Program-made: the position numbers and the translations under genes
DNA from: Methanosarcina flavescens
GTDB lineage: Archaea > Halobacteriota > Methanosarcinia > Methanosarcinales > Methanosarcinaceae
DNA: 64,000 nucleotides
Assembly (NCBI RefSeq): GCF_001304615.2
Contig: NZ_CP032683.1
Location: forward strand, 1-64,000
Reading direction: 5' to 3'
In this document: in pieces, positions 31,709-48,120 of the stretch
How the letters are laid out: each line of letters starts with the position of its first letter
Position numbering within the stretch: position 1 is the first letter of the stretch
Notes under the pieces: model-generated
Told to the model about the DNA's origin: nothing
Database searches by the model: none
Seen by the model: the letters and a program-made list of their open reading frames with translations, nothing else

Positions 31709-33688
31709 TTAAGGCTTGATTCCAAGTACATCTTCTACATAAGCTCTTAAAATCTCTGCAATACTCCATGCCTGTGCAATGGTACCTCCTGGAGAGTGCG
31801 GGTAATCTCCATCAAACACCTCAGATATGGTGCCAATGCCTGCGGTTTCGAGATGCTCGTCAAAACCCTCAAGGAGGGTCTTCATGGATTCGATATGGTT
31901 GTTCGAATAGCCGTGAACCTTCAAATAGGCTTTCACATAGGATCCGAGGAGCCAGGGCCAGACCGTCCCGTTATGATAAGCCGTATCCCTGTTAATGGCA
32001 TCCCCGCGGTACTGACCTTTATATAAGGGGTGGTCACATGAAAGGCTTCTTAGCCCGAAGGGTGTAAGAAGATCCTTTTCAACTCTATCCACTATGGCTC
32101 TTTCTTTCTCAGGGGAAAGCATGGTATAGGGAAGTGACACAACAAAAATTTGATTCGGTCGGATTGCAGGGTCTTTAGCCTCATTTCCTGCTTCGTCCCA
32201 GTATATAAGGTCAAAGAGGCAGTTAGTCTCAGGGTTCCAGAAAGCATTCTCAAAGTTTGAGACTACCCCAGCTGCGAGATTCTCGTATTTGGAGACATCT
32301 TCGCCAAGGAGAGTGCCCAGGTAGGAAGTTGTCTTCAGGGCATTGTACCAGAGAGCGTTCACCTCACAGGCTTTACCTGCTCTTGGGGTCACCGCCCATT
32401 CCCCGATTTTTGCATCCATCCAGGTCAGTTGAGGTCCCTGCCGAATAAGGTAATCAGAATCCATGCCTATTCCAAAATCTGTGCCACTAGAATAACAGGC
32501 TATAATCTCCTCTACGGAATCCCAGACATCAGAGAGGAAAAGGAAATCCTGCGTATAAGCAAAATACTGGTCCAGGGCATGAATAAACCAGAGAGAAGCA
32601 TCCACTGTATTGTAAACTGGATCTCCTCCGAAAGCCGGGAAAGTATTGGGAATCAGGCCTCTCCGGCAGTATCTGGCAAAATTGATAAGAGTGGACCTTG
32701 CCTCCTCGAAGCGGTAGGGAATTAAAAGCAAGCCGGGCAAGGAAATCATGGCATCTCTCCCCCAGTCCGAATACCAGTGATATCCTGCAATCACGGTATT
32801 TTCACCTGTAACACGGTTTTTTACCACAAAAGTGTCGGTTGCCTTGAGAAGCTTGAGAGCGAAGGGATCTTTAATCTTCGAGTCGAGTACCAGAAGGTTC
32901 TGCCGGTTTGCTTCCCTTAAGTAGAGTTTATCAACCTTCTCAAGTGTTAGAGAAGAAATATCTCCTGTCGAAGCTGCTATAAAAAAACGGGAAGTTCCCT
33001 TTTCGAGCTTGCTCTCAAAATAACCAGGATTGAAATTATCTTCCTGGAAATTAAGCCCACGTCTTTTCTCAGTGTCATACTCCAGGTTATAGTACCATAC
33101 TGGCTCGGGATGATACTGGAGATTGGACGAAATCGAGAAAGTGAAACCAGTAGAGCTTGCAAGATGTACTCCCGTAGGTCCGGGTCTTTGGAAGAAAGAA
33201 AGGTATCCTGAACGGGCAGTAAGGTTAAAATCTCTTGAGCTTACCAGAGGAAAGATTCTGAGTAAAGCCCCTTCTCTTTGAGATGTAATATCATAGACAA
33301 CAAAAGTAGTATTACTATTATGGACCATGAAAACTTTTTTCTTTACAGTAAAATCTCCGGCCTGGTAAACCCAGAGAGGAAATGGGTTACGATTAAACTC
33401 AACTAGATGTTTGAAACCCTCAGGGAAAATTTTTTCGGGGTACTTATGGACCGCGAGCTGATAAAGTTCTCCATTAATGGAAATTTCCTCATCAAGGGAA
33501 GAAAGTATTAAAAGTCTCCCAGGAGAATTCTCTGGAGTTGCTACAAGCAACCCGTGGTAAGTTCTTGTCGCTGCTCCGATAATTGTGGAGGAAGCGTATC
33601 CTCCAAGCCCGTTTCCTATGATCCATTCCCTTTTTGTTCCCTCTTCGTATGTTGAGAGAAAATCTATTCCAAACCTGCCCCCATTCAT
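31709..33688 (-). CDS. Glycogen debranching enzyme-like protein (amylo-alpha-1,6-glucosidase, GH133)
   Basis: 659 aa. The N-terminal domain begins REWIIGNGLGGYASSTIIGAATRTYHGLLVAT, the hallmark of the archaeal/bacterial GDE N-terminal region. A C-terminal (alpha/alpha)6 barrel holds AGYHWYSDWGRDAMISLPGL (about 315-335), NTVDASLWFIHALDQY, DAKIGEWAVTPRAGKACEVNALW and NGTVWPWLLG. It removes alpha-1,6 branch glucose units from glycogen in the cytoplasm. It is the first gene of an operon with the GH130 enzyme. The start at 33688 has little ribosome-binding signal, so a leaderless transcript is possible. Confidence 0.85.
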   Translation of the reverse strand: MNGGRFGIDFLSTYEEGTKREWIIGNGLGGYASSTIIGAATRTYHGLLVATPENSPGRLLILSSLDEEISINGELYQLAVHKYPEKIFPEGFKHLVEFNRNPFPLWVYQAGDFTVKKKVFMVHNSNTTFVVYDITSQREGALLRIFPLVSSRDFNLTARSGYLSFFQRPGPTGVHLASSTGFTFSISSNLQYHPEPVWYYNLEYDTEKRRGLNFQEDNFNPGYFESKLEKGTSRFFIAASTGDISSLTLEKVDKLYLREANRQNLLVLDSKIKDPFALKLLKATDTFVVKNRVTGENTVIAGYHWYSDWGRDAMISLPGLLLIPYRFEEARSTLINFARYCRRGLIPNTFPAFGGDPVYNTVDASLWFIHALDQYFAYTQDFLFLSDVWDSVEEIIACYSSGTDFGIGMDSDYLIRQGPQLTWMDAKIGEWAVTPRAGKACEVNALWYNALKTTSYLGTLLGEDVSKYENLAAGVVSNFENAFWNPETNCLFDLIYWDEAGNEAKDPAIRPNQIFVVSLPYTMLSPEKERAIVDRVEKDLLTPFGLRSLSCDHPLYKGQYRGDAINRDTAYHNGTVWPWLLGSYVKAYLKVHGYSNNHIESMKTLLEGFDEHLETAGIGTISEVFDGDYPHSPGGTIAQAWSIAEILRAYVEDVLGIKP

Positions 33689-34348
33689 ATATATTTGATT
33701 AGTGTTGATTTATTAAATACCTGTACGTTTAGAAAAAAAGCAATTACTACTGAAGTTACTCACCTATCTTCATCTATGCATTACGCTGTCTGAAACATTT
33801 GATCCTCAATTCCTGTGGTGGTTTTGCTGCCTCAACCGCCTGCAAATCGAAACGAACCTTGGGTGACATTCCTGTGAGAGTTCGCAGATAGGAGTTCTAC
33901 CCTGTTTGCTTATGTTTTTCAAAAACGTTCTGATCGTTGGCTTGAGCAGGAGCCTATCCGAAGAATACTTTTTCGAACCAGATTATTATTTAGGGAATAT
34001 TACTGAAACACCTCTTATCGAGCTTGTCGCCTCCGAGAAACAGTTAAAAAGAGTCACAGCCAGACAGTTTGCTGCCCCATTCGCTTTTATAATAATAAAT
34101 ACATAAAAGAATAATTATATTTAAACATTATCAAGCACCGATGCACTTGCAAAGGGGATATGCTCGAATCGATTAGGGGAGTTATCAGTCTGGCGTGATA
34201 GAGAACAAATTACAGTGCCTGGAATGCTGCACTTTCTCATGCTGGAAACCAAAATGTAACCGTCTTCCTGTATTCTAAAATAGAATTCCTAAACCGCCTT
34301 TTTAACGGAAAATCTCGAGATTACAATAATAGGTAAGGAGTGATCTTT
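33689..34348. other. Spacer holding an anSME relic and a recurring promoter element
   Basis: 660 bp between the divergent debranching-enzyme and LURP-one genes. It contains a decayed sulfatase-maturase fragment (about 33955-34040) and ACATAAAAGAATAATTATAT (34101-34120), which recurs upstream of the 45829 gene. The remainder shows no gene. Confidence 0.6.
33955..34040 (+). pseudogene. Relic of an anaerobic sulfatase-maturating enzyme gene
   Basis: The plus frame reads FFEPDYYLGNITETPLIELV followed by ASEKQ. It matches the SPASM-domain stretch of the intact maturase at 40693 (FVEPDYLLGNIMEKEISELA, ASEKQ). Only this ~25-residue block is left. The radical SAM core with CxxxCxxC and the C-terminal cysteines are gone. 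It lies upstream of a LURP-one gene, as the intact maturase cluster does, so it marks a decayed duplicate of the cassette. Confidence 0.75.
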
Positions 34349-34873
34349 GTGAAATTATTTGGGGGTCGCGAGGATAATCAAGAAGCGAAAGGACACGTCT
34401 ATAGAATGAATGAGAAACTCATTTCCATCGGAGATGACTACTGGATAGAAGATGAAACTGGAGAGCGAGCTTTCTATGTTGATGGAAAGGTTCTCCGAAT
34501 TCGCAACACCCTGATTTTCAAAGACCTGCGAGGAAATGACTTATATAAAATTACAGAAAAACTGCTCCGTATCAGGGATACTATGGAAATCAAAAGGGCA
34601 GATGACAGCCTGGCTGCAACAGTCAAAAAAGATCTCATTAATATTCTGCGGGATAAGTGGAAAGTTGAAATTTCTGATGGACCAGATATGGAAATTCATG
34701 GCAACATTCTGGATCACGAATATGAGATTGAGTCTGAAGGAAGGAAAATTGCAGAAGTCTCAAAAAAGTGGTTCCGCCTACGGGATACCTATGGAGTTAA
34801 GATTGAGCCCGGGCAGGATAATGCACTCGTCTTGGCGATTGCGGCTGCACTTGACCAGATGGCACATGATTGA
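34349..34873 (+). CDS. LURP-one-related (tubby-like fold) protein, copy 1
   Basis: 174 aa from the GTG at 34349, placed 8 nt after an AAGGAG ribosome binding site; an upstream in-frame GTG lies inside that site. The LURP1-like pattern of repeated strands is clear: YRMNEKLISIGDDYWIEDE, AFYVDGKVLRIRNTLIF, YKITEKLLRIRDTMEI, then DHEYEIESEGRKIAEVSKKWF and RDTYGVKI. The fold is a 12-stranded barrel around a helix, related to phospholipid scramblases and Tubby, and may bind membrane lipid. A close paralog is at 44707. It is probably co-transcribed with the transporter 19 bp downstream. Confidence 0.85.
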   Translation: MKLFGGREDNQEAKGHVYRMNEKLISIGDDYWIEDETGERAFYVDGKVLRIRNTLIFKDLRGNDLYKITEKLLRIRDTMEIKRADDSLAATVKKDLINILRDKWKVEISDGPDMEIHGNILDHEYEIESEGRKIAEVSKKWFRLRDTYGVKIEPGQDNALVLAIAAALDQMAHD

Positions 34874-34891
34874 TAAAAAGGGGTTAGAAAC

Positions 34892-35776
34892 GTGGTTGAA
34901 ATTGAAGCTTTTACAAGCCTTTTCCAAACCACTGGTTATATTGCTGCAATAGTCTTTGTGCTGGCAAGCACATTTTCAGCTGGAATTTCTCTTACGATTC
35001 AGCAGATTCTTGATCCATTGCATAACATAAAGCTGGTACTTCTCGCGCTTGTAGCAAATTTTATATTTGTACCTGCGCTTGCACTGGTCTTGCTGTACGT
35101 ATTCTCACTTCCACGACCACTGGCAATCGGACTTTTTATTCTCGGTACCGTTGCAGGGTCTCCTTTCGTCCTGAAGCTCACGCAGGCAGCCAGAGGAGAT
35201 GTTGCTCTTGCAGCAGGGCTGATGATACTCCTGATGGTTGTAACAGTTATTTATTTGCCTGTCGTTCTCCCGATATTTTTCCCCGGAATCGAGGCAAGTG
35301 CCTGGGATCTTATTAGATCTACGGCTGAGATAATACTTATCCCGCTGGCGCTTGGTCTACTGGTCCGTACCAGGTATGAAGAACTGGCAGAGGAACTGCG
35401 CCCTTTTATTAATGAAGTGAGTAACCTTGCCTTCCTCGTTCTGATCATATCCTACATCCTAGCTTACTTACCTTCCATGCTGCGTATTATCACTGAAACC
35501 TATACACTCTTTGCCGGGGTTATACTTACAATTGGGTCATATGCACTTGGCTATTTTCTGGGAGATCCTGATAGATCACACAAGCAGGCGTTAGGCTTCG
35601 GAACTGCCCAGCGTAATATCTCGGTAGCACTGGCAATTGCAGGTTTAAATTTCGGAGATCCTTATGTTACAATCATGATCTTTTTCATATCAATTGTTGC
35701 TGTTATATTGCTGATGTTTTTTGCACAGGAAATTGGTTATCATCACAAAAAGGGAGAAGAAGCTCACCTGGGATGA
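34892..35776 (+). CDS. Bile acid:sodium symporter (BASS) family transporter
   Basis: 294 aa with about nine or ten transmembrane helices. Family markers are LALVANFIFVPALALVLLYVF, GTVAGSPFVLKLTQAARGDVALA (about 90-112) and LGFGTAQRNISVALAIAG (about 237-255), the unwound-helix region that forms the Na+ and substrate site. BASS proteins import organic anions such as sulfated steroids or pyruvate, or export organic acids. Next to a sulfatase cassette, transport of a sulfated organic anion is an attractive inference. The GTG start at 34892 has GGGG upstream, and the gap to the LURP-one gene is 18 bp. Confidence 0.8.
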   Translation: MVEIEAFTSLFQTTGYIAAIVFVLASTFSAGISLTIQQILDPLHNIKLVLLALVANFIFVPALALVLLYVFSLPRPLAIGLFILGTVAGSPFVLKLTQAARGDVALAAGLMILLMVVTVIYLPVVLPIFFPGIEASAWDLIRSTAEIILIPLALGLLVRTRYEELAEELRPFINEVSNLAFLVLIISYILAYLPSMLRIITETYTLFAGVILTIGSYALGYFLGDPDRSHKQALGFGTAQRNISVALAIAGLNFGDPYVTIMIFFISIVAVILLMFFAQEIGYHHKKGEEAHLG

Positions 35777-36211
35777 GAAGTAACTTCCTGAACAATAGCT
35801 TTGAAAAAGATTACAGGTACTCTTGCTCGAATTTCTAGAGTCAGGAATGAATCTCAAAGTCAGGTGCTGGATAGAGAACTATGTAGATCTCTGGGTTTCA
35901 CTGGATCAGCTTAACACGGCTATTTACAAATGCAGATATTGAATTGTCGGCTTACAATATCGTTGTTGGTTCTACTGGTCCGGAGATCGGATCTATAGTA
36001 TCTAATTGCCGCAAAAATTCCAGGACTAAATAACTTTGCTTCAATAAGCGAATTCAATAAATTTAGGTCAGTAAACTATCAAAAGTAAAATATTATGTAT
36101 AAAATAATATACATGACAATATAATATGATCTTAAATTGCGAGTTCTGGGGAGATCTCGCAGTTCTATAAAGTGGGAATTTAGCAATACCAGGACACCAG
36201 GAGGGGGACAG
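35777..36211 (+). promoter_or_regulatory. Leader region of the first sulfatase gene with repeated motifs
   Basis: No ORF. A TCAGGA...CTCAAAGTCAGGTGCTGGATAGA block (35843-35883) is homologous to one at 40298-40335. Nearer the gene, an AATATAATATG TATA-like box (36117-36127) is followed by CTGGGGAGATCT (36146-36157), which resembles the promoter-leader elements ahead of the maturase (40467) and the 45829 gene (45316). A GTATA/TATAC dyad lies at about 36096-36111. Confidence 0.55.
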
Positions 36212-38569
36212 ATGTCACTGAAAGAATATAAGCCCGGATCTCCTTTTAAAGGGAAAATAGGGCGAACGATAGATGAATCAGAACCCGCCTGGCCAGCACA
36301 GCGGCGAGCAAAAGATGGCGCACCCAATGTGCTGTTCATTGTGCTGGACGACGTAGGTTTTGGACAACTCGGTTGCTACGGCAGCCCTATTCACACACCA
36401 AATCTGGATAGCCTGGCTGAGGGAGGTCTTCTCTATACCAATATGCACACGACTCCACTGTGCTCTCCATCGCGCGCGTGCATACTTACCGGAAGAAATC
36501 ACCATTCAAATAACATGGCCGCCGTAGCCGATAATTCAACAGGCTTTCCCGGTTATAACGGGTATATACCTTTTGAAAACGGTTTTTTGTCGGAAATACT
36601 TCTGGAACATGGATACAATACCTATGCTCTTGGTAAATGGCATTTAACACCTTTAGAGCAGATCTCGGCAATAGGACCTTACGATCGCTGGCCCCTGGGG
36701 AGAGGATTCGAACGCTTTTACGGATTTATGGGAGGGGATACGAATCAGTATTATCCCGAGCTGGTTTATGACAATCACTATATAATTGATCTCCCCAAGA
36801 CTCCCGAAGAAGGCTATACCCTGAATGAGGATCTGGCTGATAGGGCTATCCAGTTCATTGCTGATACCAAGCAGATTGACCCAAACAAGCCCTTTTTCCT
36901 GTATTACTGCCCTGGAGCCATGCATGCTCCTCATCATGTTCCTAGAGAATGGGCAAATAAGTATAAAGGCAAGTTTGATGATGGCTGGGAAGCTTATCGG
37001 GAAAAGACCTTCGCACGGCAGAAAGAACTGGGTGTTATCCCGAAAAATGCCAGATTATCCCCTCATGATCCTGATGTCCCGCACTGGGACGAATGCTCTC
37101 CTGATGAAAAGAAGATCTACTCTCGAATGATGGAGGTTTATGCCGGATTCCTGGAGCAGACTGACTACCATATAGGCAGGATAATACGGTTCCTGAAAGA
37201 AGCTGGTGAATTTGAGAACACCCTGATAATGGTGATTTCAGACAATGGAGCCAGTGCCGAAGGCGGTTCCTCGGGGACAATCAACGAGAACCAGTTCTTC
37301 AACAATGTGCCTGGTCTGATAGAGGAGAGCCTTGAATACCTGGATAAACTGGGAGGTCCAGAGACCTTCAGTCACTATGCCTGGGGTTGGGCATGGGCTG
37401 GGGATACACCCTTCCGCCGCTGGAAACGAGAGACTTATCGCGGTGGTGTCAGTGCTCCCTTTATTGTCCACTGGCCCAGGGGAATAAAAACCAGAGGCGA
37501 GATTAGAAACCAGTATGCCCATGCTATCGATATGGTACCAACAGTCCTGGATTGCCTGGGAATAGAGCCACCGCTATCTATTAAGGGAATAACTCAATCA
37601 GCTATTGAAGGAGTAAGTTTTGCACATACCTTCGACAATGCCGATGCACCTACCAAACACCACACCCAGTACTTCGAAATGATAGGAAATCGTGCTCTGT
37701 ATCACAATGGCTGGCGCGCCGTATGTCCATGGCCCGGGCCTTCATTTGCTGAAGCAGAACATGCTTTTGGTTCGCCTATCACGGCAGATATGCTGGTCGA
37801 GCTGGATGCAAAAGGCTGGGAGCTTTACCACGTGGATAAAGACTGGACAGAGACCGAGAATGTGGCAGAGGAAAACCGGTCCAGATTGATCGAGATGATC
37901 GCCATCTGGTATACAGAAGCCGGAAAATATAATGTGCTGCCCATCGATAGCCGTATGGTGCAGCGCCTTAAAGAAGAACGCCCTTCCGCTGCACCTGATA
38001 GATCGGTTTACACATATTATCCCGGGACTGAGCCGGTTATCTTGAGTGCGGCAGTTAATGTGCTCAACCGCTCACATGTTATTACTGCTCATGTAGATAT
38101 TCCGAAAGGAGGGGCTGAGGGGGTTCTGCTAGCCAATGGCACTGTCGGCGGAGGCTATTCATTTTATATGAAAGACGGAAAGCTGCACTATGTATACAAT
38201 TATGTAGCCAGGAGTCTTCATCATCTTGAATCTTCGGAGAACGTCCCGGAGGGACGGCATCAACTAAGCTTCGAATTCGAAGTGACAGGTAAGCCAAATC
38301 TTGCCAGAGGTGAAGGCGCGCCAGGTACAGCTCAACTCTTTATAGACGGAAAATCAGCTGCCAGGGCTGATATACCTGTAACGATACCAATTACCCTTGG
38401 AATAACCAGCGGGCTCACCTGTGGTTCAGCTCCTGCATCTCCAATTACACCTGACTACAAGCCTCCCTTCAAGTTCACAGGCAAGATATTTAAGGTGACT
38501 GTGGATGTAAGTGGCAAGTTACACGAAGATAAGGAAGCTGAGATGCGTATGATCATGGCGCGGCAATAA
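36212..38569 (+). CDS. Sulfatase (arylsulfatase family), Cys-type
   Basis: 785 aa from the ATG at 36212, which has a GGAGGGGG ribosome binding site; the frame is open further upstream. Metal-binding VLDDVGFG (44-51) and the activation motif CSPSR with Cys84 (84-88, then ACILTGR) mark a Cys-type sulfatase. Cys84 must be oxidised to formylglycine to be active. Other conserved blocks are ALGKWHL, HAPHHVPREW, ISDNGAS and KRETYRGGVSAPFIVHWPRG. A C-terminal beta-sandwich (~610-785) is added. No signal peptide, so a cytoplasmic enzyme on imported sulfate esters is suggested. The maturase at 40693 is the obvious activator. Confidence 0.9.
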   Translation: MSLKEYKPGSPFKGKIGRTIDESEPAWPAQRRAKDGAPNVLFIVLDDVGFGQLGCYGSPIHTPNLDSLAEGGLLYTNMHTTPLCSPSRACILTGRNHHSNNMAAVADNSTGFPGYNGYIPFENGFLSEILLEHGYNTYALGKWHLTPLEQISAIGPYDRWPLGRGFERFYGFMGGDTNQYYPELVYDNHYIIDLPKTPEEGYTLNEDLADRAIQFIADTKQIDPNKPFFLYYCPGAMHAPHHVPREWANKYKGKFDDGWEAYREKTFARQKELGVIPKNARLSPHDPDVPHWDECSPDEKKIYSRMMEVYAGFLEQTDYHIGRIIRFLKEAGEFENTLIMVISDNGASAEGGSSGTINENQFFNNVPGLIEESLEYLDKLGGPETFSHYAWGWAWAGDTPFRRWKRETYRGGVSAPFIVHWPRGIKTRGEIRNQYAHAIDMVPTVLDCLGIEPPLSIKGITQSAIEGVSFAHTFDNADAPTKHHTQYFEMIGNRALYHNGWRAVCPWPGPSFAEAEHAFGSPITADMLVELDAKGWELYHVDKDWTETENVAEENRSRLIEMIAIWYTEAGKYNVLPIDSRMVQRLKEERPSAAPDRSVYTYYPGTEPVILSAAVNVLNRSHVITAHVDIPKGGAEGVLLANGTVGGGYSFYMKDGKLHYVYNYVARSLHHLESSENVPEGRHQLSFEFEVTGKPNLARGEGAPGTAQLFIDGKSAARADIPVTIPITLGITSGLTCGSAPASPITPDYKPPFKFTGKIFKVTVDVSGKLHEDKEAEMRMIMARQ

Positions 38570-39165
38570 ACAGATACATCTGCAAATCAACAGATCACAC
38601 CTCTTAAGGTCTAGACCACAAGCATAGAGAATTCCAGAAATATTGAAGATAAAAGCGGATAGTCAGATTAATGAGACCAGCTTAACACGTCAACAACTAT
38701 TTAAAAATCATTTAATTCGTTTTCTTTATCAAATCTTATTTACAATATTATGCAGGTTGGTTTATATATTTTTGGACTTACATACCTTTACGGCACAATA
38801 TTGAAAATGCTTTTTTAACTGCAGAGTTCTCGTTAAAGGGAGGGAAAACCAGGGTATATCGAGAAGGTGCAGGCAGTTCATATGATAACTGCTGCCCTGG
38901 AACGGCACAGCGAGAGCTGGACAGCAGGGCGGAATTGTTGGGGGAAGATTAACTGAATGAAGTAGCATATTGAATCAGTCGTGAATAAAAGGATGATCAG
39001 GCTAATTGACCTGCTGTTCATATGGAAAGACGAAGAAGGGAACATTGAGTCTATTAAAACCGCTTAGCTGGGCGAAGTTCCATATAAAAATCTGGCACTG
39101 AAACCTTTGCTCCGAATTAATATGGAAGAAAATTAGCACCAGGGGAAAGATCTGGAGATATAAAC
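38570..39165. other. Spacer after the first sulfatase gene
   Basis: About 600 bp without a clear gene. A 24-codon plus frame at 38992-39066 (MIRLIDLLFIWKDEEGNIES) reads like protein but has stops on both sides and no ribosome binding site. It is possibly a remnant. Confidence 0.4.
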
Positions 39166-40224
39166 ATGAATACAGATACCATTTCAACGCCGGCTAAAAT
39201 TCTGATTTACAGCACTGCTGCAGTTATCCTTACACTGGGTATGAAGGCAATCTCAGACATATTAGTGCCGGTTTTTTTTGCGCTTTTTGCCTTTTTGATC
39301 TTTTCTCCCCTTGTCCACTGGCTCATGAGGAGAGGAGTCCCGGGAAAGATCAGCGTTTTTCTTGTGATCCTGCTTTTCATTTTTGTTTTTTTTGGAACTG
39401 CAATCCTCTTTGCAAACTCTTTACTCCAGCTAAGCGGCAGGATTCCAAGCTATGAGAATCAGTTGCAGAATATACTGGACAGTGTCTCAAGATATTTGCC
39501 TGAAGCGGGGGTAACGGTAGAATCAGCCCTCCAAGATATTGCAGCATTTGCTTTCGGCGTTTCTACGGACATTATTTCAGGAGCTTTAAGCGCCGGATCA
39601 ACACTTATGCTCATCTTTATCACGACAACATTTTTACTTCTGGATGCTGCAGGTGCTCCAAAAAGAGTGCAAAGAGAAAATGAAGATCAGCCAATACATA
39701 TTTTGCGGTTTACCGAACTGAGCAAGACCGTCGTAAATTACATGCTCCTGCGGACTGAGACCAATCTGGTCGGAGGCATTGGAGTTGCCATACTTTTCCT
39801 TCTTGGAGGCATAGATTTTGCTGTTCTATGGGGCCTCCTGTTCTTCCTGTTCGGTTATATCCCTTTCCTGGGCTTTTATCTGGCAACTATTCCACCTATG
39901 CTCCTTGCCCTGTTCGAATACGGGCTTATAGGGGCACTGGGTGTCCTTATCGGCGTCACTATTATCAATGCGCTTGTAGAAAATGTCGTTTTCCCGTCTA
40001 TTGCAGGAAAAGGCCTTAAATTATCTCCGACGCTTGTGTTTCTTTCTTTATTTTACTGGTCTTACGTACTCGGGACAGCAGGTGCGCTGATTGCCGTACC
40101 CCTTACAATAGTTGTGAAAATAATTCTGGAGAGTTCTGAGGAGACACGCCTTATAGCCAAACTGATGGAATCAAGCGGGGATAGGGGACAGGATGAGGAA
40201 AAGATTGTAGAAAACTCATCTTGA
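39166..40224 (+). CDS. AI-2E/PerM family transporter, copy 1
   Basis: 352 aa with about seven or eight transmembrane helices: an N-terminal pair (about 11-60), one near 62-90, a soluble loop ~90-140, then four or five C-terminal helices. The family block YIPFLGFYLATIPPMLLALFEYG (about 232-255) and VENVVFPSIAGKGLKLSPTLVFLSLFYWSYVLG are present. Relatives include TqsA, PerM and Na+/H+ antiporters of this superfamily, so the substrate is open. A near paralog is at 45829. GGGGAAAG and GGAG lie ahead of the ATG. Confidence 0.85.
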   Translation: MNTDTISTPAKILIYSTAAVILTLGMKAISDILVPVFFALFAFLIFSPLVHWLMRRGVPGKISVFLVILLFIFVFFGTAILFANSLLQLSGRIPSYENQLQNILDSVSRYLPEAGVTVESALQDIAAFAFGVSTDIISGALSAGSTLMLIFITTTFLLLDAAGAPKRVQRENEDQPIHILRFTELSKTVVNYMLLRTETNLVGGIGVAILFLLGGIDFAVLWGLLFFLFGYIPFLGFYLATIPPMLLALFEYGLIGALGVLIGVTIINALVENVVFPSIAGKGLKLSPTLVFLSLFYWSYVLGTAGALIAVPLTIVVKIILESSEETRLIAKLMESSGDRGQDEEKIVENSS

Positions 40225-40692
40225 AGTCTAAAGGCCTGTCATTTCAAAACCAGTTAACAGCAACGACAGCTTATTCTTTCCTCTGTCCTACAAATCAGGA
40301 GTAAAGCTCAGAGCCAGGTTATGGATAGAAATACACATAACCAGAATTTTACATAAGTTTAAATTTTTAGTAAATAAACCTGCTTCGCAGACCCGATAAA
40401 TTAATCAATACGCATAAAATTTTATATATAAAAGAGCAATTATATAAATGAATTGTTGAACGGGGACCTGGGGAAATCTCAAAGGTTCAGCTGGGGGTTA
40501 GCAGATTAATATTAACCGGTAGATACCTGGTAAACGGTTCTACAATAACACATCTGACGAATCTCAGAATCCAGGTTGAAATCGACAGTATTCAAAAAAA
40601 GCAATTTTAAGTAATTAATATAGTTCTCTATAGCGCAGTCTGTGGAAAAAAGTGGAAGAACTGCCTAATAGCAATCCTATAAGGGAGTTAGA
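40225..40692 (+). promoter_or_regulatory. Maturase leader containing the long duplicated promoter element
   Basis: 40398-40606 is homologous to 45239-45453. Shared blocks are CCGATAAA..TAATCAA..GCATAAAA, AATTATATAAA (TATA box, 40439-40449), TTGAAC, CCTGGGGAAATCT, AGGTTCAG, and ATCTCAG.ATCCAGGTTGAAATCGA.AGTATT.AAAAAA. An earlier block (40298-40335) matches upstream of the first sulfatase. It probably holds the maturase/sulfatase operon promoter and a conserved ~200-nt leader. Confidence 0.6.
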
Positions 40693-41991
40693 ATGACACA
40701 AAACTATCTACCTCCTCGAATCCATGTGCTGGCAAAACCGACCGGTTCAATATGCAACCTGGCCTGTGCCTATTGTTATTTTTTGGATAAAAAGGCTCTT
40801 TATCCAGGTAGCAAGTTCTGCATGTCAGACGAAGTGCTGGAGAATTACATCCGTCAGCTCATCACAGCCCACCGCAGCCCGCAGGTAACCGTTGCCTGGC
40901 AGGGAGGTGAACCTACCCTGATGGGAATAGACTTTTACCGGCGTGCCATCGAACTGCAGGAAAAGTACAGAAAACCGGGCGTGAATTTTGAGAACACGAT
41001 GCAGACCAACGGCACGTTGCTGGACGACGAATGGTGCCAGTTTTTTAAGGAAAACAATTTTCTCATAGGGATCAGTATCGATGGTCCGCGTGAACTGCAT
41101 GATATCTACCGGGTGGACAAAAAAGGGGAGGGGAGCTTTGACCGGGCCATGCGAGGGCTGCGCCTCCTACAAAAGCACGGAGTGGAATACAACGTCCTGA
41201 CAACAGTAAACAGGATAAATGCCGATCATCCTCTGGAGGTCTACCACTTCCTGCGAGATGAAGCAGGGGTAGACTGGATTCAGTTTATTCCGGTTGTAGA
41301 GAGGATCAATGAGGAAGGATACACCCTTTACCAGAAAGGAGATACTGTCTCAGACCGCTCGGTGCAACCAGAACAGTTTGGGAGCTTCCTTAGCCGCATT
41401 TTTGACGAGTGGGTGAGAAATGATGTGGGAAAACTCTTTGTGCAGACTTTTGAGGCTTCTGCACGAAGATGGCTGGGGCTGCCCTCAGGCATGTGCGTTC
41501 TTGAAGAAACATGCGGAGCTGGGCTTGCTCTGGAGCACAATGGGGATCTCTACTCATGCGACCATTTTGTAGAGCCTGACTACCTGCTTGGCAATATTAT
41601 GGAGAAAGAGATCTCTGAACTTGCTGCTTCGGAAAAGCAATACAGGTTTGGACAGGATAAACGTAATACTCTACCAAAGGTATGCTGTGAATGCGATGTG
41701 CTTTTCGCCTGCCAGGGAGAATGTCCAAAGAATCGTTTTCTTGCCACCTCTACCGGGGAACCTGGCCTGAACTACCTTTGTAAGGGCTGGAAAGCTTTCT
41801 TCCATCATATCGATTTTCCTATGAAGCTCATGGCAGGTTTGATACGCCAGGGGTATCCGGCTTCTGAAGTTATGAGAGTTATTGCCCTGGAAGAAGCCTT
41901 TGCGCAGACCGGACGCAATGAGCCCTGCCCCTGCGGAAGCGGGAAAAAGTTCAAACGCTGTCACGGTCAGGGAAAAAGTGGACAGAAATAA
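40693..41991 (+). CDS. Anaerobic sulfatase-maturating enzyme (radical SAM, SPASM, SEC-C tail)
   Basis: 432 aa. Radical SAM motif C21-x3-C25-x2-C28 (ICNLACAYCYF), then VAWQGGEPTLMG (~75-86), MQTNGTLLDDEW and GISIDGP. The SPASM domain, which holds two auxiliary 4Fe-4S clusters, shows MCVLEETCGAGLALE, DLYSCDHFVEPDY, CCECDVLFACQGECPKNR and a final YLCKGW. It oxidises the active-site Cys or Ser of sulfatases to formylglycine without O2. A C-terminal SEC-C zinc motif (EPCPCGSGKKFKRCHG) is an extra, perhaps for ribosome or substrate docking. The start has a GGGAG ribosome binding site. It lies 21 bp ahead of the second sulfatase, so an operon. Confidence 0.92.
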   Translation: MTQNYLPPRIHVLAKPTGSICNLACAYCYFLDKKALYPGSKFCMSDEVLENYIRQLITAHRSPQVTVAWQGGEPTLMGIDFYRRAIELQEKYRKPGVNFENTMQTNGTLLDDEWCQFFKENNFLIGISIDGPRELHDIYRVDKKGEGSFDRAMRGLRLLQKHGVEYNVLTTVNRINADHPLEVYHFLRDEAGVDWIQFIPVVERINEEGYTLYQKGDTVSDRSVQPEQFGSFLSRIFDEWVRNDVGKLFVQTFEASARRWLGLPSGMCVLEETCGAGLALEHNGDLYSCDHFVEPDYLLGNIMEKEISELAASEKQYRFGQDKRNTLPKVCCECDVLFACQGECPKNRFLATSTGEPGLNYLCKGWKAFFHHIDFPMKLMAGLIRQGYPASEVMRVIALEEAFAQTGRNEPCPCGSGKKFKRCHGQGKSGQK

Positions 41992-42012
41992 GACTTAATG
42001 GGGAATAGGGAA

Positions 42013-43467
42013 ATGACAGAAAAGAAACCAAACATACTGGTCATCTGGGGAGATGACATTGGCATTAGCAACCTCAGTTGCTACAGCGACGGTCTGATGG
42101 GCTACAGAACACCGAACATTGACCGGATAGCTAACGAAGGTATCAGGTTTACGGATTCTTACGGGGAGCAGAGCTGTACTGCCGGGAGAGCTGCTTTCAT
42201 CACAGGACAGAGCGTCTTCCGTACAGGGTTGAGCAAGGTGGGAATGCCAGGAGCCAAAGTAGGAATTCAGCCTGAAGACCCTACAATCGCCGAACTGCTG
42301 AAACCGCTGGGTTATGCTACTGGTCAGTTTGGAAAGAACCATCTCGGGGATCTGGACGAATACTTGCCTACCAACCATGGTTTTGACGAATTCTTTGGCA
42401 ACCTTTATCATTTGAATGCTGAAGAGGAACCTGAATTACGCGATTATCCGCCTGAGAAAGACTTTCCTAATTTCCGGAAGAACTTTGGTCCCAGGGGTGT
42501 AATCCATAGCTATGCCGACGGTCGCATCGAGGATACTGGCCCGTTGACCAGAAAAAGAATGGAAGAAGTAGACCAGGAATTTCTGGATGCAGCCATCGAT
42601 TTTATCAAACGCCAGCATGAGGCGGAAAAGCCTTTCTTCGTCTGGTTCAACACTACAAAGATGCATTTCAGGACTCACATCCCGGAAAGAATACGGGGAC
42701 AGTCGGGGCGCTGGCAATCCGCGTACCATGACGCCATGATTGAGCACGATCGGCAGGTAGGCGTGCTTCTCGACCTGCTGGACGAAATAGGCATTGCGGA
42801 TGATACTATTGTTATCTACAGCACGGACAACGGACCACATATGAACTCCTGGCCCGATGCAGCCATGACCCCATTCCGTAACGAGAAAAACTCCTGCTGG
42901 GAGGGAGCTTTCCGTGTTCCTGAGGTAATGCGCTGGCCTGGCAAGATCCCCGCAGGCACAATTTCTAACGAGATTGTGAGCCATCTTGATTGGCTGCCCA
43001 CTTTACTTGAAGCAACAGGAGAACCGAATATTAAGGAAAAACTCAAAAAAGGTCACAAAGCAGGAGATAAAACTTTCAAGGTACATCTTGACGGTTATAA
43101 TCTTCTTCCCTACCTGACCGGGAAAGAAAAAAAATCTCCACGTACTGAGTTCTTTTACTTCTCCGACGATGGAGACCTGGTAGCTCTCAGGTACGATAAC
43201 TGGAAAATGGTCTTTATGGAGCAGCGCGCCATCGGCACGCTCCAGGTCTGGGCTGAACCTTTTGTCCCGCTGCGCATACCAAAGATATTCAACCTGCGTA
43301 CCGATCCTTATGAAAGGGCGGATCAGACATCAAATACCTATTATGACTGGCTTCTAGACCATGCCTTCCTGCTGGTGCCTGCCCAGAGTGTCGTTGGTGA
43401 TTTCTGGCAACGTTTAAAGAATTCCCTCCGCGCCAGAGAGCGGCTAGCTTTACCGTTGATCGGGTAA
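42013..43467 (+). CDS. Sulfatase (arylsulfatase family), Cys-type, operon partner of the maturase
   Basis: 484 aa from the ATG at 42013, which follows GGGGAATAGGGAA; an in-frame ATG at 41998 lacks a ribosome binding site. Metal-binding VIWGDDIGI (10-18) and the activation motif CTAGR with Cys55 (then AAFITGQ) are present. QFGKNHLGD, FVWFNTTKMHF, IYSTDNGPH and NEKNSCWEGAFRVPEVMRWPGKI complete the active site. It lacks the C-terminal sandwich of the first sulfatase. No signal peptide, so presumably cytoplasmic. The 21-bp gap to the maturase implies co-expression and activation in place. Confidence 0.92.
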   Translation: MTEKKPNILVIWGDDIGISNLSCYSDGLMGYRTPNIDRIANEGIRFTDSYGEQSCTAGRAAFITGQSVFRTGLSKVGMPGAKVGIQPEDPTIAELLKPLGYATGQFGKNHLGDLDEYLPTNHGFDEFFGNLYHLNAEEEPELRDYPPEKDFPNFRKNFGPRGVIHSYADGRIEDTGPLTRKRMEEVDQEFLDAAIDFIKRQHEAEKPFFVWFNTTKMHFRTHIPERIRGQSGRWQSAYHDAMIEHDRQVGVLLDLLDEIGIADDTIVIYSTDNGPHMNSWPDAAMTPFRNEKNSCWEGAFRVPEVMRWPGKIPAGTISNEIVSHLDWLPTLLEATGEPNIKEKLKKGHKAGDKTFKVHLDGYNLLPYLTGKEKKSPRTEFFYFSDDGDLVALRYDNWKMVFMEQRAIGTLQVWAEPFVPLRIPKIFNLRTDPYERADQTSNTYYDWLLDHAFLLVPAQSVVGDFWQRLKNSLRARERLALPLIG

Positions 43468-43633
43468 TGGAAAAGCTCTTGCATGGAATCGGGAGCACCT
43501 GAGGTTGAAGTCCTCTATCTGGAACATTCTACTCCTTCAAGGTAATGCTCAGCAGTATGGGTAGACTGTTCCTATATGGAACCAAATTGCATCAGTGGAT
43601 TTTATAATTTCACCTGAAACAAAGTAAGAGGAA

Positions 43634-44556
43634 TTGATAATATCCGGGATTCTCTTATTATGGAATGAAACGCCAGCTAAGAAAGCAATCATCAGTTATG
43701 TAAACGCCATCACGAATCCTGAGAGCGCTGATTTTGTGCCAGAAACCGAGAGAATTGCCATCCTGGACAACGATGGAACCATGTGGGTGGAGAAGCCTGT
43801 CTATGTTCAGGTTTTCTTTGTCATAGACCGGCTGAAACAGCTGGCTGAGGCAGACCCTGCGCTTCTGGACCAGCCAAACTTTAAAGCAGCGGCAACGGGC
43901 GACTTGACCTACTTTTTCAGGTTTGATCCCCATGCTGGCGGCGATGTTAAGTTACTGATGCAGATGGTCTTTGATTCTCACGCCGGCATGTCTCAGGACG
44001 ATTTCATGCTTATGGCTAAAGAGTTCCTGGAGACTGCCAAACATCCCCGTTTTGGCATGCTGTACAAAGATCTGACGTACAAGCCTATGGTTGAGCTTGT
44101 GCACTACCTGGGCGATAGCGGCTTTAAAGTCTTCCTAGCATCTGGGGGCGGCATGAGCTTTATGCGTGCGGTCTCGGAGGAGATCTACAACATCCCAAGA
44201 GAGCGAGTTATCGGCAGCAACATCTCATTGAGACCCGGATGACTGATGAGGGACCGGTGATTTTCCGCAGGAGAGGTCTGGTCGATCCAATCGACGACGG
44301 AGCAGGAAAGCCGGTCAATATCGAACTGCATATTGGCCGCAAGCCCATCCTGGCTGCTGGCAATTCGGATGGAGATCTGCACATGCTGTGGCTGGCACAG
44401 AAAAGTGGTTACCGCTCTCTATCTTTGCTGCTCCGCCATGATGATGCAGAGTGCGAGTACGCCTACAACGAGGGAAGCGAGAAGACGCTGCAGATGGCAA
44501 AGGAACGGGGCTGGGTTGTGGTCAGCATGAAGGATGATTGGAAGACTGTGTTCTGA
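43634..44556 (+). pseudogene. HAD-family phosphatase, split by a frameshift
   Basis: Two overlapping frames together make one HAD hydrolase of ~305 aa. The first (43634-44242, TTG start after AGAGGAA) has motif I ILDNDGTMW, ADxT-like YKPMVELVHYLG and motif II VFLASGGG, and ends prematurely after SNISLRPG. The second frame (entered at about 44222-44230) continues TRMTDEGPVIF, AAGNSDGDLHML (motif IV acid pair) and a normal C-terminus. A single missing T in the TCATTGAG stretch would explain it. It is either a recent pseudogene, a sequencing error, or a recoding event. HAD genes of this type often accompany sulfatases, so the context fits. Confidence 0.85.
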
Positions 44557-44706
44557 GATATTACATCTCAATGCTCAAGAAGGCGCAAGGCATGAAAATC
44601 ACAAGAAACAGGATGAAAGGGACTACAATCCTCCTCTGGTCTATAACGAAATAAATAGAACTGCAAGGTAGGTAAGTGAATTTAGTAAACAAAGGGAGTG
44701 ATTTTG

Positions 44707-45234
44707 ATGAGGCGAATCATGGGCGGTCTCAGGGGCCGTGGAGAAGAAAGCATACAACGCTACAAAATGCACGAAAAACTCGTTACCATCGGAGACGACT
44801 ACTGGATAGAAAATGAAGCTGGGGAGCAGGCATTCTATGTTGATGGTAAAGCTCTCCGGATTCGCGACACTCTGATCATCAAAGATGTGCAGGGAAATGA
44901 ATTGTATAAACTCAAGGAGAAGCTTCTCAGGATAAAGGATACGATGGACATCGAGGATGGGGATGGAAAAACAGCCGCAACAATTAAAAAAGCCCTGATT
45001 ACACCTCTCCGAGACCGATTTAAAGTTGAAGTCTCAAATGGGCCTGAAATGGATATTCAGGGAAATATTCTGGATCACGAGTATAAGATTGAGTCTGAAG
45101 GGAGGAAGATTGCAGAAGTCTCAAAAAAGTGGTTCCGCCTACGGGATACCTATGGAGTGGAGGTTTCCCCAAGACAGGACGCTGCCCTGATCCTGGCAAT
45201 TGCTGCAGCACTTGACCAGATGGTGCATGACTGA
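44707..45234 (+). CDS. LURP-one-related (tubby-like fold) protein, copy 2
   Basis: 175 aa from the ATG at 44707, 8 nt after GGGAG, matching the start geometry of copy 1. It has the same strand repeats: YKMHEKLVTIGDDYWIENE, AFYVDGKALRIRDTLII, LLRIKDTMDI, GNILDHEYKIESEGRKIAEV and SKKWFRLRDTYGVEV. The block from NILDHEY to DTYG is almost identical to copy 1 at DNA level, implying duplication or gene conversion. Likely cytoplasmic or membrane-binding; function unknown. It lies 150 bp after the broken HAD gene. Confidence 0.85.
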   Translation: MRRIMGGLRGRGEESIQRYKMHEKLVTIGDDYWIENEAGEQAFYVDGKALRIRDTLIIKDVQGNELYKLKEKLLRIKDTMDIEDGDGKTAATIKKALITPLRDRFKVEVSNGPEMDIQGNILDHEYKIESEGRKIAEVSKKWFRLRDTYGVEVSPRQDAALILAIAAALDQMVHD

Positions 45235-45828
45235 AAAGGATCCGATAAAACTAATCAACATGCATAAAAACACATAAAAGAATAATTATATAAAGTAAAT
45301 TATTGAACATCGAGCCTGGAGAGATCTTGAAGGTTCAGTAGAAGTAGACAGTACAAAAGTTAACCTGTAAATGCATGCAAGCAGTTTTGGTAATGAAAGA
45401 GACATTTGACATATCTCAGCATCCAGGTTAAAATCGATAGTATTGAAAAAAAGGGTACTTCTCGGTTAATCAGTTGATATTTTGAAATTCCTGTAGTTTA
45501 CCACCTCTGTTAATTTCCGATGAGCCAGAGTTTACCAGTTGTAATCACACATTATCCCTTACCTATCCCTGACAACCGGAACCCAGAAAATGTATTGTTT
45601 ATACTATTTTTACTAATTTTTCTCTATTTTGAACTCATACCTGAGAGCTTTGATGGAATGAGATGAATGGCAAAGGTGAGAGTATGCCAGAATACCTTGA
45701 GGACAGTTAAAGAAGCGTGGGAAAAGCTTAGAGCCCATGACGATAAGGAAAACTCAAAACTCTTGGAATATTTTTTTATACTATTAACCGAATGCTATTA
45801 ATGGATATGAAGGTATTCGGGGGCGTAA
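45235..45828 (+). promoter_or_regulatory. Second copy of the long duplicated leader element
   Basis: 45239-45453 is homologous to 40398-40606 ahead of the maturase. It includes ACATAAAAGAATAATTATAT (45272-45291, identical to 34101-34120), the TATA box, TTGAACATCGAGCCTGGAGAGATCT and CATCCAGGTTAAAATCGA. It lies ~380 bp from the next gene start. The interval 45455-45828 has no ORF beyond a short frame at 45684-45800. Confidence 0.6.
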
Positions 45829-46872
45829 ATGAATACAGATAAAACCAGTATGGATAATTACCCATTGCCTGCCAGAATTCTGCTTTATAGCACAGCAGTG
45901 GTTATCCTGACAATCGGGATGAGGGAGATTTCAGGTATACTTGTGCCTGTTTTTTTCTCAATTTTTGCCTTTCTGATCTTTGCTCCTCTTGTCAACTGGT
46001 TCGAGAGAAGGAATGTGCCTGGCACAATAAGTATAGGTCTGGTGATTGCATTCTTTATAATTATTGCTACGAGCACAGTTCTTCTTGTTGCAGGGTCCCT
46101 GCTTCAGCTCAGCGAGCAGATTCCAGACTATCAAACCCAATTTCTGAATTTCATCCAGAGTTTTGAACCCTATATGCCTGTATCCTATGAGTCATCCTTT
46201 GAAGAAATTCTGCGTGATATAGCGATATTTTTACTTGGTCTGACTGCAGGAATTCTTACGGGTGCTCTGAATGCTGGCACAACAATATCTCTTATTATTA
46301 TTACCACAACATTTTTACTTCTGGATGCTGCAGGCGCTCTGAGAAGGATACAAAGGAGAGCTGTAACTCAACAAATCCTGATTTTACGGGTTATCGAACT
46401 TGGCAAAGAAATAGTGAATTATATTCTTATCAGGACCGAAATCAATCTTATTGCAGGCATTGGAACTACCATACTTCTCCTTATTGGAAGAATCGATTTT
46501 GCAATTCTCTGGGGTTTTCTGACCTTCCTGTTTGGTTATATTCCATTTCTCGGTTTTATTCTGGCAGCTTTTCCTCCTGTACTGCTTGCGCTATTCAAAT
46601 ACGGGCCTCTTGGAGCGCTTATAATCCTCGCTGGAGTCTGGCTTATAAACGAGTTCGTAGAAAGTGTAGTGTTCCCATCATTTGCAGGAAAGAGCCTTAA
46701 ATTATCCACGTCGATCGTGTTTCTCTCTTTACTGTACTGGTCTTTTGTGCTGGGTCCTCCAGGTGCACTTATAGCCGTACCTCTTACCATGGTTGTTAAA
46801 ATGATCCTGGAAAGTGACGATAATACACTCTGGATGGCAGAAATAATGGAATCGGGTGAAAGTAAAGAATAA
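45829..46872 (+). CDS. AI-2E/PerM family transporter, copy 2
   Basis: 347 aa paralog of the 39166 gene, with the same topology and blocks: PARILLYSTAVVILTIGMREIS, TTFLLLDAAGALRRIQRR, FGYIPFLGFILAAFPPVLLALFKYG and ESVVFPSFAGKSLKLSTSIVF. The LSEQIP loop (~90-140) is the most diverged part. With copy 1 it brackets the maturase-sulfatase-HAD-LURP block, consistent with duplication. The start is preceded by GGGGGCG. Substrate unknown; an export or ion-coupled role is possible. Confidence 0.85.
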   Translation: MNTDKTSMDNYPLPARILLYSTAVVILTIGMREISGILVPVFFSIFAFLIFAPLVNWFERRNVPGTISIGLVIAFFIIIATSTVLLVAGSLLQLSEQIPDYQTQFLNFIQSFEPYMPVSYESSFEEILRDIAIFLLGLTAGILTGALNAGTTISLIIITTTFLLLDAAGALRRIQRRAVTQQILILRVIELGKEIVNYILIRTEINLIAGIGTTILLLIGRIDFAILWGFLTFLFGYIPFLGFILAAFPPVLLALFKYGPLGALIILAGVWLINEFVESVVFPSFAGKSLKLSTSIVFLSLLYWSFVLGPPGALIAVPLTMVVKMILESDDNTLWMAEIMESGESKE

Positions 46873-47231
46873 AACCAGGAAAAAACAGGCAGGAGCTCTT
46901 TTTTAAAATTACGGGAAGCTACCTTAAAGAGCCGTAGACCCTGGAATGGTATAATCAGGTTTGCTAGAGAATTCACTCTCCGGGCACAATTTAATTTTTT
47001 CAAAGTTAATCGCCGTAAAACGGTGTTGCAATAGTAAATTATATAAACAATATAATTATAATAAGGTCGTTATGAACTGACAGTCACAAAACTGTCAGTC
47101 AAACAGGAAAACAATGATACTTGATATAAAGAAAGAGACGAAGGCTGAATAAAACAATCAGATTCACATTCCGACTGCAACCCGTAAGCAATAGATTTAC
47201 GTCATAAATAAAAATAAGGAGTGGTGTATTT
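46873..47231. other. Spacer with hairpin ahead of the YqhA-like gene
   Basis: Contains AATTATATAAACAATAT (about 47037-47053), resembling the TATA boxes of the sulfatase cassette, and a perfect 9-bp hairpin at 47076-47099. No ORF supported. Confidence 0.5.
47076..47099. promoter_or_regulatory. Perfect 9-bp inverted repeat (ACTGACAGT)
   Basis: ACTGACAGT, a 6-nt loop CACAAA, then ACTGTCAGT. It lies ~25 bp downstream of the TATA-like box, so at the likely transcription start or in the leader of the YqhA-like gene. An operator or an mRNA hairpin are both possible. Confidence 0.55.
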
Positions 47232-47738
47232 ATGGTCAAACCAGTTAAGTGTGTTGCAGAAAAAATAGGTAAATTTGTTGCTGGGATGCGGTTCTTCGTA
47301 CTTGTTCCGATCATCGGGCTGGCTATCGCGGCTGTTGTGCTGTTTGTCAAAGGTAGCATAGAACTCTTCTATTTCATAAACGAACTGATTTACGGAATAG
47401 AGAGAACAGAAATAGAGATAAGTATCATTGTTGAAATAGTAGAGATTGTTCATCTCTTCCTGGTAGGCACAGTGCTCTTTATCACATCACTTGGGTTTTA
47501 TGAATTGCTTATTCAGCCTCTTGCTTTATCTCCATGGCTGCAAACACATAACATTGAAGAACTGGAGTTAAACCTTGTAGGGCTCACTATTGTCGTGGTC
47601 GCAGTAAATTTCTTAAGTGTTATATTTGATAAAAATGATAGTAACCTTGCTGTTTACGGGCTAGGCTATGCCCTGCCCATTGCAGCTCTGGCTTATTTCA
47701 TGAAAGTGCGTTCAGGCATAGCTAAGCAGACTAGCTAA
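47232..47738 (+). CDS. YqhA / UPF0114 family membrane protein
   Basis: 168 aa with four transmembrane helices: RFFVLVPIIGLAIAAVVLFV, a long hydrophobic pair around IVEIVEIVHLFLVGTVLFITSLGFYELLI, VGLTIVVVAVNFLSVIF and YALPIAALAYFM. The E-rich helix followed by LFITSLGFYEL is the UPF0114 hallmark. Family function is not established. An AAGGAG ribosome binding site lies 11 nt before the ATG. It closes the duplicated accessory cassette. Confidence 0.8.
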   Translation: MVKPVKCVAEKIGKFVAGMRFFVLVPIIGLAIAAVVLFVKGSIELFYFINELIYGIERTEIEISIIVEIVEIVHLFLVGTVLFITSLGFYELLIQPLALSPWLQTHNIEELELNLVGLTIVVVAVNFLSVIFDKNDSNLAVYGLGYALPIAALAYFMKVRSGIAKQTS

Positions 47739-48120
47739 GTAGAGGAATGTCTGAAAGCTACAGGAGAAATAGTTCAAGGAGAAATAGTTCAGGCGGATAG
47801 TGATTCAGGTACCTATAAAAAATAAAGATTGAAAGCGGGTTCATTGATAATTTCCATTCCCTTTATCTGCTTCTATTTTTTGCTGCTTATTTCTCTGGCG
47901 GGCAAATTTTCAGCAAACTTTAATAAATTTCTTACTTACAAATTACTTACAAATAAACCTTCCAATTAAAGGAGTGTAAGCCTTCTTTTTCAGAAAAACA
48001 GTTTGATTCTCTTTTTCAGTACAGTCTTCAGTATGGTTTTTTTAAATAATCAGGAGATAGCAAATGTTGGTCGTGAAACCGAGTTGAGGGTGAGAGAACA
48101 GCTTAGAACTGAATGAGGAT
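47739..48120. other. Spacer with a short direct repeat
   Basis: Two perfect 15-bp tandem copies of AGGAGAAATAGTTCA at 47762-47776 and 47777-47791. Otherwise AT-rich between two converging genes, with T-runs that may terminate the YqhA transcript (47875-47890). Confidence 0.5.

Follow-up and report, generated by a model that had tools for sequence, protein, structure and literature searches.

Maturases in the Methanosarcinaceae

Among the loci compared, the closest relative of the sequence described here is an intact anaerobic sulfatase maturase, MAT2, located at positions 46496-47764 of JAENYU010000007.1 in G037, a metagenome-assembled genome from another genus of the Methanosarcinaceae. Its intact frame of 433 residues carries radical SAM, SPASM, and SEC-C domains and scores 508.4 bits against TIGR03942. 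MAT2 surfaced only through a family-wide search (111 genomes, E up to 1e-60), in which G037 alone had a complete second maturase; it shares 65% identity with MAT1, the intact maturase of the DNA under study. An intact MAT2 close in sequence to the relic is known from this one metagenome-assembled genome. In a class-wide search (237 genomes), two maturases each were found in G189 and G191, which belong to another family.

MAT2 of G037 stands at the head of a module with the order MAT2-LURP-SBF-AI2E, i.e., it is followed by genes for a LURP-one-related protein (LURP), a bile acid:sodium symporter family protein (SBF), and an AI-2E family transporter (AI2E). No relatives of SulfA or SulfB, the two sulfatases of the cassette described below, were found in a 20-kb stretch around it; a gene lying 2 kb upstream reaches 21.7 bits with the Pfam Sulfatase model, whose cut-off is 25, and scores higher with Metalloenzyme. 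MAT2 may be linked to sulfatases encoded elsewhere or to some other substrate. In G035, from the same genus as G037, a 20-kb stretch holds LURP-SBF-AI2E without MAT2 or any trace of it.

Within Methanosarcina, MAT1-type matches at E 1e-60 or better are present in 20 of the 30 genus genomes, and five of the ten others are less than 90% complete. Two of the 20 have a broken MAT1, split into two frames in G008 and carrying an internal deletion in G020. Outside the 20, G013 has a stub resembling MAT1 residues 9-40 (L164 545-661, G013:C7) in front of a full-length SulfB match and LURP2; here the sulfatase is kept and the maturase is lost at this place. A further maturase relic, in two frames and 36-38% identical to MAT1, was observed at L165 2348-2759 (G023:C89) in a genome without a MAT1-type match. 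Maturase loss or damage is common in the genus. The broken maturases of G013, G020, and G008 share deletion or frameshift damage with the relic reported below but, unlike it, are remnants of MAT1 itself. We found no literature on this relic, as judged by titles and abstract openings.

The interval upstream of LURP1

The DNA analyzed (the window) comprises the first 64,000 nucleotides of the genome's single contig, which measures 3.28 Mb. The genes of its cassette all lie on the plus strand. LURP1 (34340-34873; PF04525) is followed by SBF1 (34892-35776; PF01758), the sulfatase gene SulfA (36137-38569; PF00884), and AI2Ea (39166-40224; PF01594). Beyond these stands the intact maturase MAT1 (40693-41991; TIGR03942, 506.6 bits; cut-off, 349.45), followed by a second sulfatase gene, SulfB (41998-43467; PF00884), a HAD-like gene (43634-44556), LURP2 (44698-45234; PF04525), and AI2Eb (45829-46872; PF01594). 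The HAD-like gene occupies two frames here and one open frame in the sister genome G028, whose copy scores 23.8 against the Pfam HAD cut-off of 27. The frame is broken at ~44228, where a run of T is one base shorter than in G028, G006, and G001, reflecting either decay or a sequencing error.

Some 650 bases without a clear gene lie between LURP1 and the divergently oriented glycogen debranching enzyme gene (31709-33688, minus strand). In this interval, the plus-strand frame at 33963-34049 translates into 29 residues, EYFFEPDYYLGNITETPLIELVASEKQLK, of which 17 are identical to MAT1 residues 290-318 in the SPASM region (tblastn in the 64-kb window, E 1.7e-5). By tblastn and HMM, the piece corresponds to residues 289-317 of the intact G037 protein. 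It is on the same strand as MAT1, 6.6 kb apart. A maturase HMM built from 96 maturases scored the relic frame at 20.6 bits (33963-34061; 19.6 bits in a differently cut scan), against a best score of 6.7 bits among 12,000 frames from 2,000 Markov-shuffled sequences. When the whole genome was searched with the 29-residue piece at E up to 1, two places were returned, the relic itself and MAT1. Across the 29 further genus genomes, the same search matched MAT1-type genes (best E, 1.5e-6) and gave four further matches at E > 0.2. No plasmid relatives were found.

An earlier note on this DNA had drawn attention to a match of ~25 residues to the SPASM region of the intact maturase at 33955-34040, on the same strand and upstream of a LURP-one gene, and had taken it for the relic of a second sulfatase maturase, the intact one being followed by a sulfatase, a HAD gene, and a further LURP-one gene. 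Much of this is borne out: the SPASM-region match is real, its strand and the gene orders are as described, and both the HMM score and the pieces found at the same spot in G028 (see below) identify it as the relic of a second anaerobic sulfatase maturase. The frame, however, starts at 33963, the one starting at 33955 containing a stop and being ruled out.

No further maturase pieces were found by HMM beside the relic in the interval, and the same model showed the radical SAM domain with its cluster cysteines to be absent from all six frames of 33690-34345. The SPASM cysteines are missing as well, the relic piece being devoid of any cysteine. The fragment itself is functionless, and no coding product is supported by the evidence.

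The bases preceding the relic derive from another gene. At 33801-33949, the minus strand retains the N-terminal part of an alpha/beta hydrolase (Abhydrolase_3), as determined by blastn, tblastn, and the Pfam assignment of the intact G004 copy. A gene of this type adjoins the debranching-enzyme gene in several other Methanosarcina genomes. The hydrolase relic is 72% identical to G009 over 151 nt and 76% identical to G020 over 126 nt (blastn), and its portion at 33875-33949 matches G020 in 16 of 25 residues (tblastn, E 4e-8). An insertion-sequence origin for 33801-33950, a guess from one translation, was discarded, since the stretch is the antisense of the hydrolase gene. On the other side, a spacer (34051-34311, plus strand) extends from the maturase relic toward LURP1; apart from G028 (see below), 28 genus genomes were searched, and none has a match that spans it. 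The possibility that the spacer holds an RNA gene was also rejected: an Rfam scan of 33600-46000 gave a single match (E 0.44), which did not reach its gathering score.

The sister genome G028, whose MAT1 is 96% identical to that of the window, shares the flanks of the interval (33690-33795 at 91% and the spacer, 34051-34311, at 87%), whereas the middle differs and measures 216 bp. Inside or at the edge of this middle are two collinear maturase pieces in one frame, scoring 16.1 bits (model positions 195-239) and 8.0 bits (model positions 421-444, SEC-C motif); the second falls short of E 0.05 in a larger scan. They correspond to MAT2 residues ~195-227 and ~412-430 and match intact MAT2 in 22 of 33 (E 4e-11) and 14 of 19 (E 2e-7) residues, these E values being for a small target. 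LURP1 has been mostly lost in G028, where stretches resembling residues 57-72 and 142-176 are left side by side. Since different parts of one gene are kept in the window genome and in G028, a second maturase once stood at this site in their ancestor. The differing pieces in the two sister species also indicate that the gene eroded separately in each.

Lineage of the relic

Direct comparisons place the relic nearer to MAT2 than to MAT1. Its translation is identical to G037 MAT2 in 24 of 29 residues (tblastn with a two-sequence target, E 2.9e-13), and the segment 33967-34049 matches the MAT2 gene at the nucleotide level (blastn, 73% over 83 nt, E 1e-8), whereas blastn against MAT1 gave no match over the piece, the identity being 55% across 87 aligned nucleotides. 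Among 178 loci, G037 MAT2 gave the highest score with each of the three pieces, i.e., the relic (24/29) and the two pieces from G028 (20/26 and 14/19). For the first G028 piece, another locus, L109, ties with MAT2 in residues (20/26 each; 41.2 bits for L109 versus 41.6 for MAT2). If G037 is left out of the ranking, Methanosarcina and Chloroflexota maturases come out at about the same distance from the pieces.

The distribution of changes along the codons points in the same direction. Differences at codon positions 1, 2, and 3 number 6, 0, and 18 between the relic and MAT2, and 7, 8, and 24 between the relic and MAT1. When MAT1 was subjected to neutral change to the same nucleotide distance, a mean of 7.3 of the 29 residues were kept, and 17 or more were retained in 0 of 20,000 draws. 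Together, the codon pattern and this random-change simulation indicate that the relic diverged from MAT1 as a working gene, under selection, before breaking. G037 MAT2 is like the relic not only in its residues but also in its setting, heading LURP-SBF-AI2E as the relic precedes LURP1-SBF1; it differs in having its full 433-residue frame where the window keeps 29 codons. MAT1, although of the same family and on the same strand as the relic, belongs to a clade separate from that of MAT2 and shows the third-position divergence just described.

For the phylogenetic analysis, 134 maturases were reduced to 100 rows by removing eight rows with long branches (L100, L104, L109, L112, L119, L120, L123, and L136) and 26 whose 320-residue core was identical. 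In the resulting quick tree, MAT2 (L177, grouped with L095 at 99) falls outside the MAT1 clade, and bacterial rows separate the two; the quick trees are without bootstrap. Taken by itself, the window piece is too short for such trees, and the relic was entered as a composite row joining the pieces of the two genomes, together with 49 rows hand-picked from the 100; the groups were defined only once the pieces had been compared. The composite relic grouped with L177 and L095 with an SH-aLRT of 95.9 (49 other rows) and of 99.3 (57 other rows). The larger set restores the eight long rows, since L109 matches one G028 piece in as many residues as MAT2 does. Constraining the relic to group with ten MAT1 rows was rejected in the 49-row set (p-AU 0.032) and not rejected in the 57-row set (p-AU 0.141); with thirteen MAT1 rows, Methanolobus being added, the p-AU was 0.005 (49 rows). 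The loss of this rejection in the larger set slightly lowered our confidence in a MAT2 origin and slightly raised the standing of a duplication. The trees favor the MAT2 line and by themselves do not exclude MAT1; the case for MAT2 is carried by the direct matches and the codon pattern.

We thus consider it very probable that the relic is the dead remnant of MAT2, a second maturase that preceded LURP1-SBF1 in the common ancestor of G028 and this species and that belonged to a line separate from MAT1. While working, MAT2 would, going by the family model, have made formylglycine in sulfatases, as is expected of MAT1, and it was probably redundant beside MAT1 and became dispensable. At least three deletions would then have collapsed the interval, removing the body of the hydrolase gene, the segment from the hydrolase start to MAT2 residue ~288, and that from MAT2 residue ~318 to the stop. 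Other deletions in G028 would have left the two pieces retained there, with LURP1 decaying too.

The earlier note had explained the relic differently, by a segmental duplication of the intact cassette (MAT1 through LURP2 to AI2Eb) followed by decay of the copied maturase. The paired AI-2E genes and shared leader on which it relied do exist (see below): LURP1/LURP2, AI2Ea/AI2Eb, and the leader are paired at 68 to 77% nucleotide identity, and both modules read maturase-LURP-SBF-AI2E if the SBF2 gene of the sister genomes is counted. Membership of the relic in the MAT1 clade is, moreover, not rejected by the 57-row tree test. The relic, however, is nearest to the MAT2 line, has most of its differences from MAT1 at third codon positions, keeps more residues than any simulated neutral decay of MAT1, and groups as a composite with MAT2 in the best trees. 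Alignment of 33690-34345 with 40690-44700 at the nucleotide level, the comparison proposed in that note, yielded nothing beyond chance, namely three matches (E 3.9 each) that lie on the opposite strand and outside the piece. The refuting observation named there, a better match of the fragment to a different SPASM protein family, holds as regards lineage, which is that of MAT2, but not as regards family, MAT2 being also TIGR03942. Duplication of the intact cassette is accordingly an improbable origin for the relic.

A scenario that refines the MAT2 origin is that a LURP-SBF-AI2E module including MAT2 was copied within the family, and that MAT1, arriving by separate transfer, joined the other copy. 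The splitting of the two maturase lines by bacterial rows in the tree and the module order common to the relic and intact MAT2 are consistent with such a history; it is nevertheless doubtful, because the genes next to G037 MAT2 have closer relatives than LURP1 and SBF1 and because eight other Methanosarcina have a LURP gene at the place without MAT2. Two further readings dispense with a remnant of MAT2. The open frame over the relic spans 79 codons between stops and runs into the spacer, as might be expected if a small protein were expressed from it, but it joins antisense hydrolase DNA, relic, and spacer and is not kept in G028, making this very improbable. Chance resemblance in an intergenic stretch, which the shortness of the piece (29 residues) and the lack of another maturase piece in the window interval might suggest, has a negligible probability in view of the HMM score relative to the shuffled frames, the G028 pieces at the same spot, and the residue identity with an intact maturase.

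Paired modules and their surroundings

The MAT2-LURP-SBF-AI2E order of G037 compares with relic, LURP1, SBF1, SulfA, and AI2Ea in the window, and the second module of G028 has the order MAT1-SulfB-HAD-LURP2-SBF2-AI2Eb. The LURP and SBF genes on the MAT2 side in G037 are 77% identical to window LURP2 and 84% identical to G028 SBF2, versus 62% to LURP1 and 46% to SBF1; this greater nearness to LURP2 and SBF2 argues against plain orthology with the whole module at the relic. In the window, LURP1 and LURP2 are 67% identical in amino acids (74% in nucleotides over 531 and 77% over 480), and AI2Ea and AI2Eb are 59.5% identical over 351 amino acids (68% in nucleotides over 994). SBF1 and SBF2, the latter present only in sister genomes, are 46-48% identical. 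Two maturase-LURP-SBF-AI2E modules thus once stood side by side, which lends a measure of support to the paired segments of the earlier note; the pairs are old, however, and the maturases heading them appear to belong to different lines.

Two irregularities were observed in the second module of G028. SBF2 (L138 3641-4401) matches in two overlapping pieces, and the gene may be broken. The alignment of MAT1 (L029) shows an in-frame TAG at residue 431 of 432, which may be a stop or a residue; the genus Methanosarcina reads TAG as pyrrolysine.

The stretches around the debranching-enzyme gene were compared in ten other Methanosarcina genomes besides G028. LURP comes after an iron alcohol dehydrogenase gene in eight of them (G001, G004, G006, G012, G013, G017, G019, and G027) and after a remnant of that gene in G009; in G005 the dehydrogenase gene is present and no LURP gene was found within the stretch. 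The HMM revealed no maturase trace at the relic's place in any of the ten.

These data suggest that methanogens of this family carried two sulfatase maturase lines, which were lost repeatedly. It is conceivable, if unlikely, that two separate maturases were independently joined to one LURP-one/bile-acid-symporter-like/AI-2E-like module in the Methanosarcinaceae, MAT2 of G037 having no clear sulfatase within ~8-10 kb to either side, and that the module would be the working partner of the maturase, e.g., in the uptake or sensing of sulfated compounds, rather than a passenger. The apparently recurring maturase-LURP-SBF-AI2E order offers a clue to what archaeal LURP-one proteins do. The case also illustrates that an 87-base fragment is traceable to a gene lineage when a sister species keeps complementary pieces and another genus the intact gene. 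For the genome itself, the relic is a case of ordinary gene decay, familiar in kind; its record is unusually clear and its origin slightly surprising.

A leader of ~215 nt is common to the regions upstream of MAT1 and of AI2Eb (40390-40601 versus 45239-45453, 72% identity over 221 aligned columns). A 20-nt core of this leader, ACATAAAAGAATAATTATAT, is also present in the spacer between the relic and LURP1 (34101-34120, plus strand) as a leader- or promoter-like element identical to 45272-45291. With up to two mismatches, the element has two sites in the whole genome, both in the cassette, against one for a reversed-pattern control. The core and the leader possibly form a common promoter or operator. 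Similar elements are present in the cassettes of several other Methanosarcina genomes.
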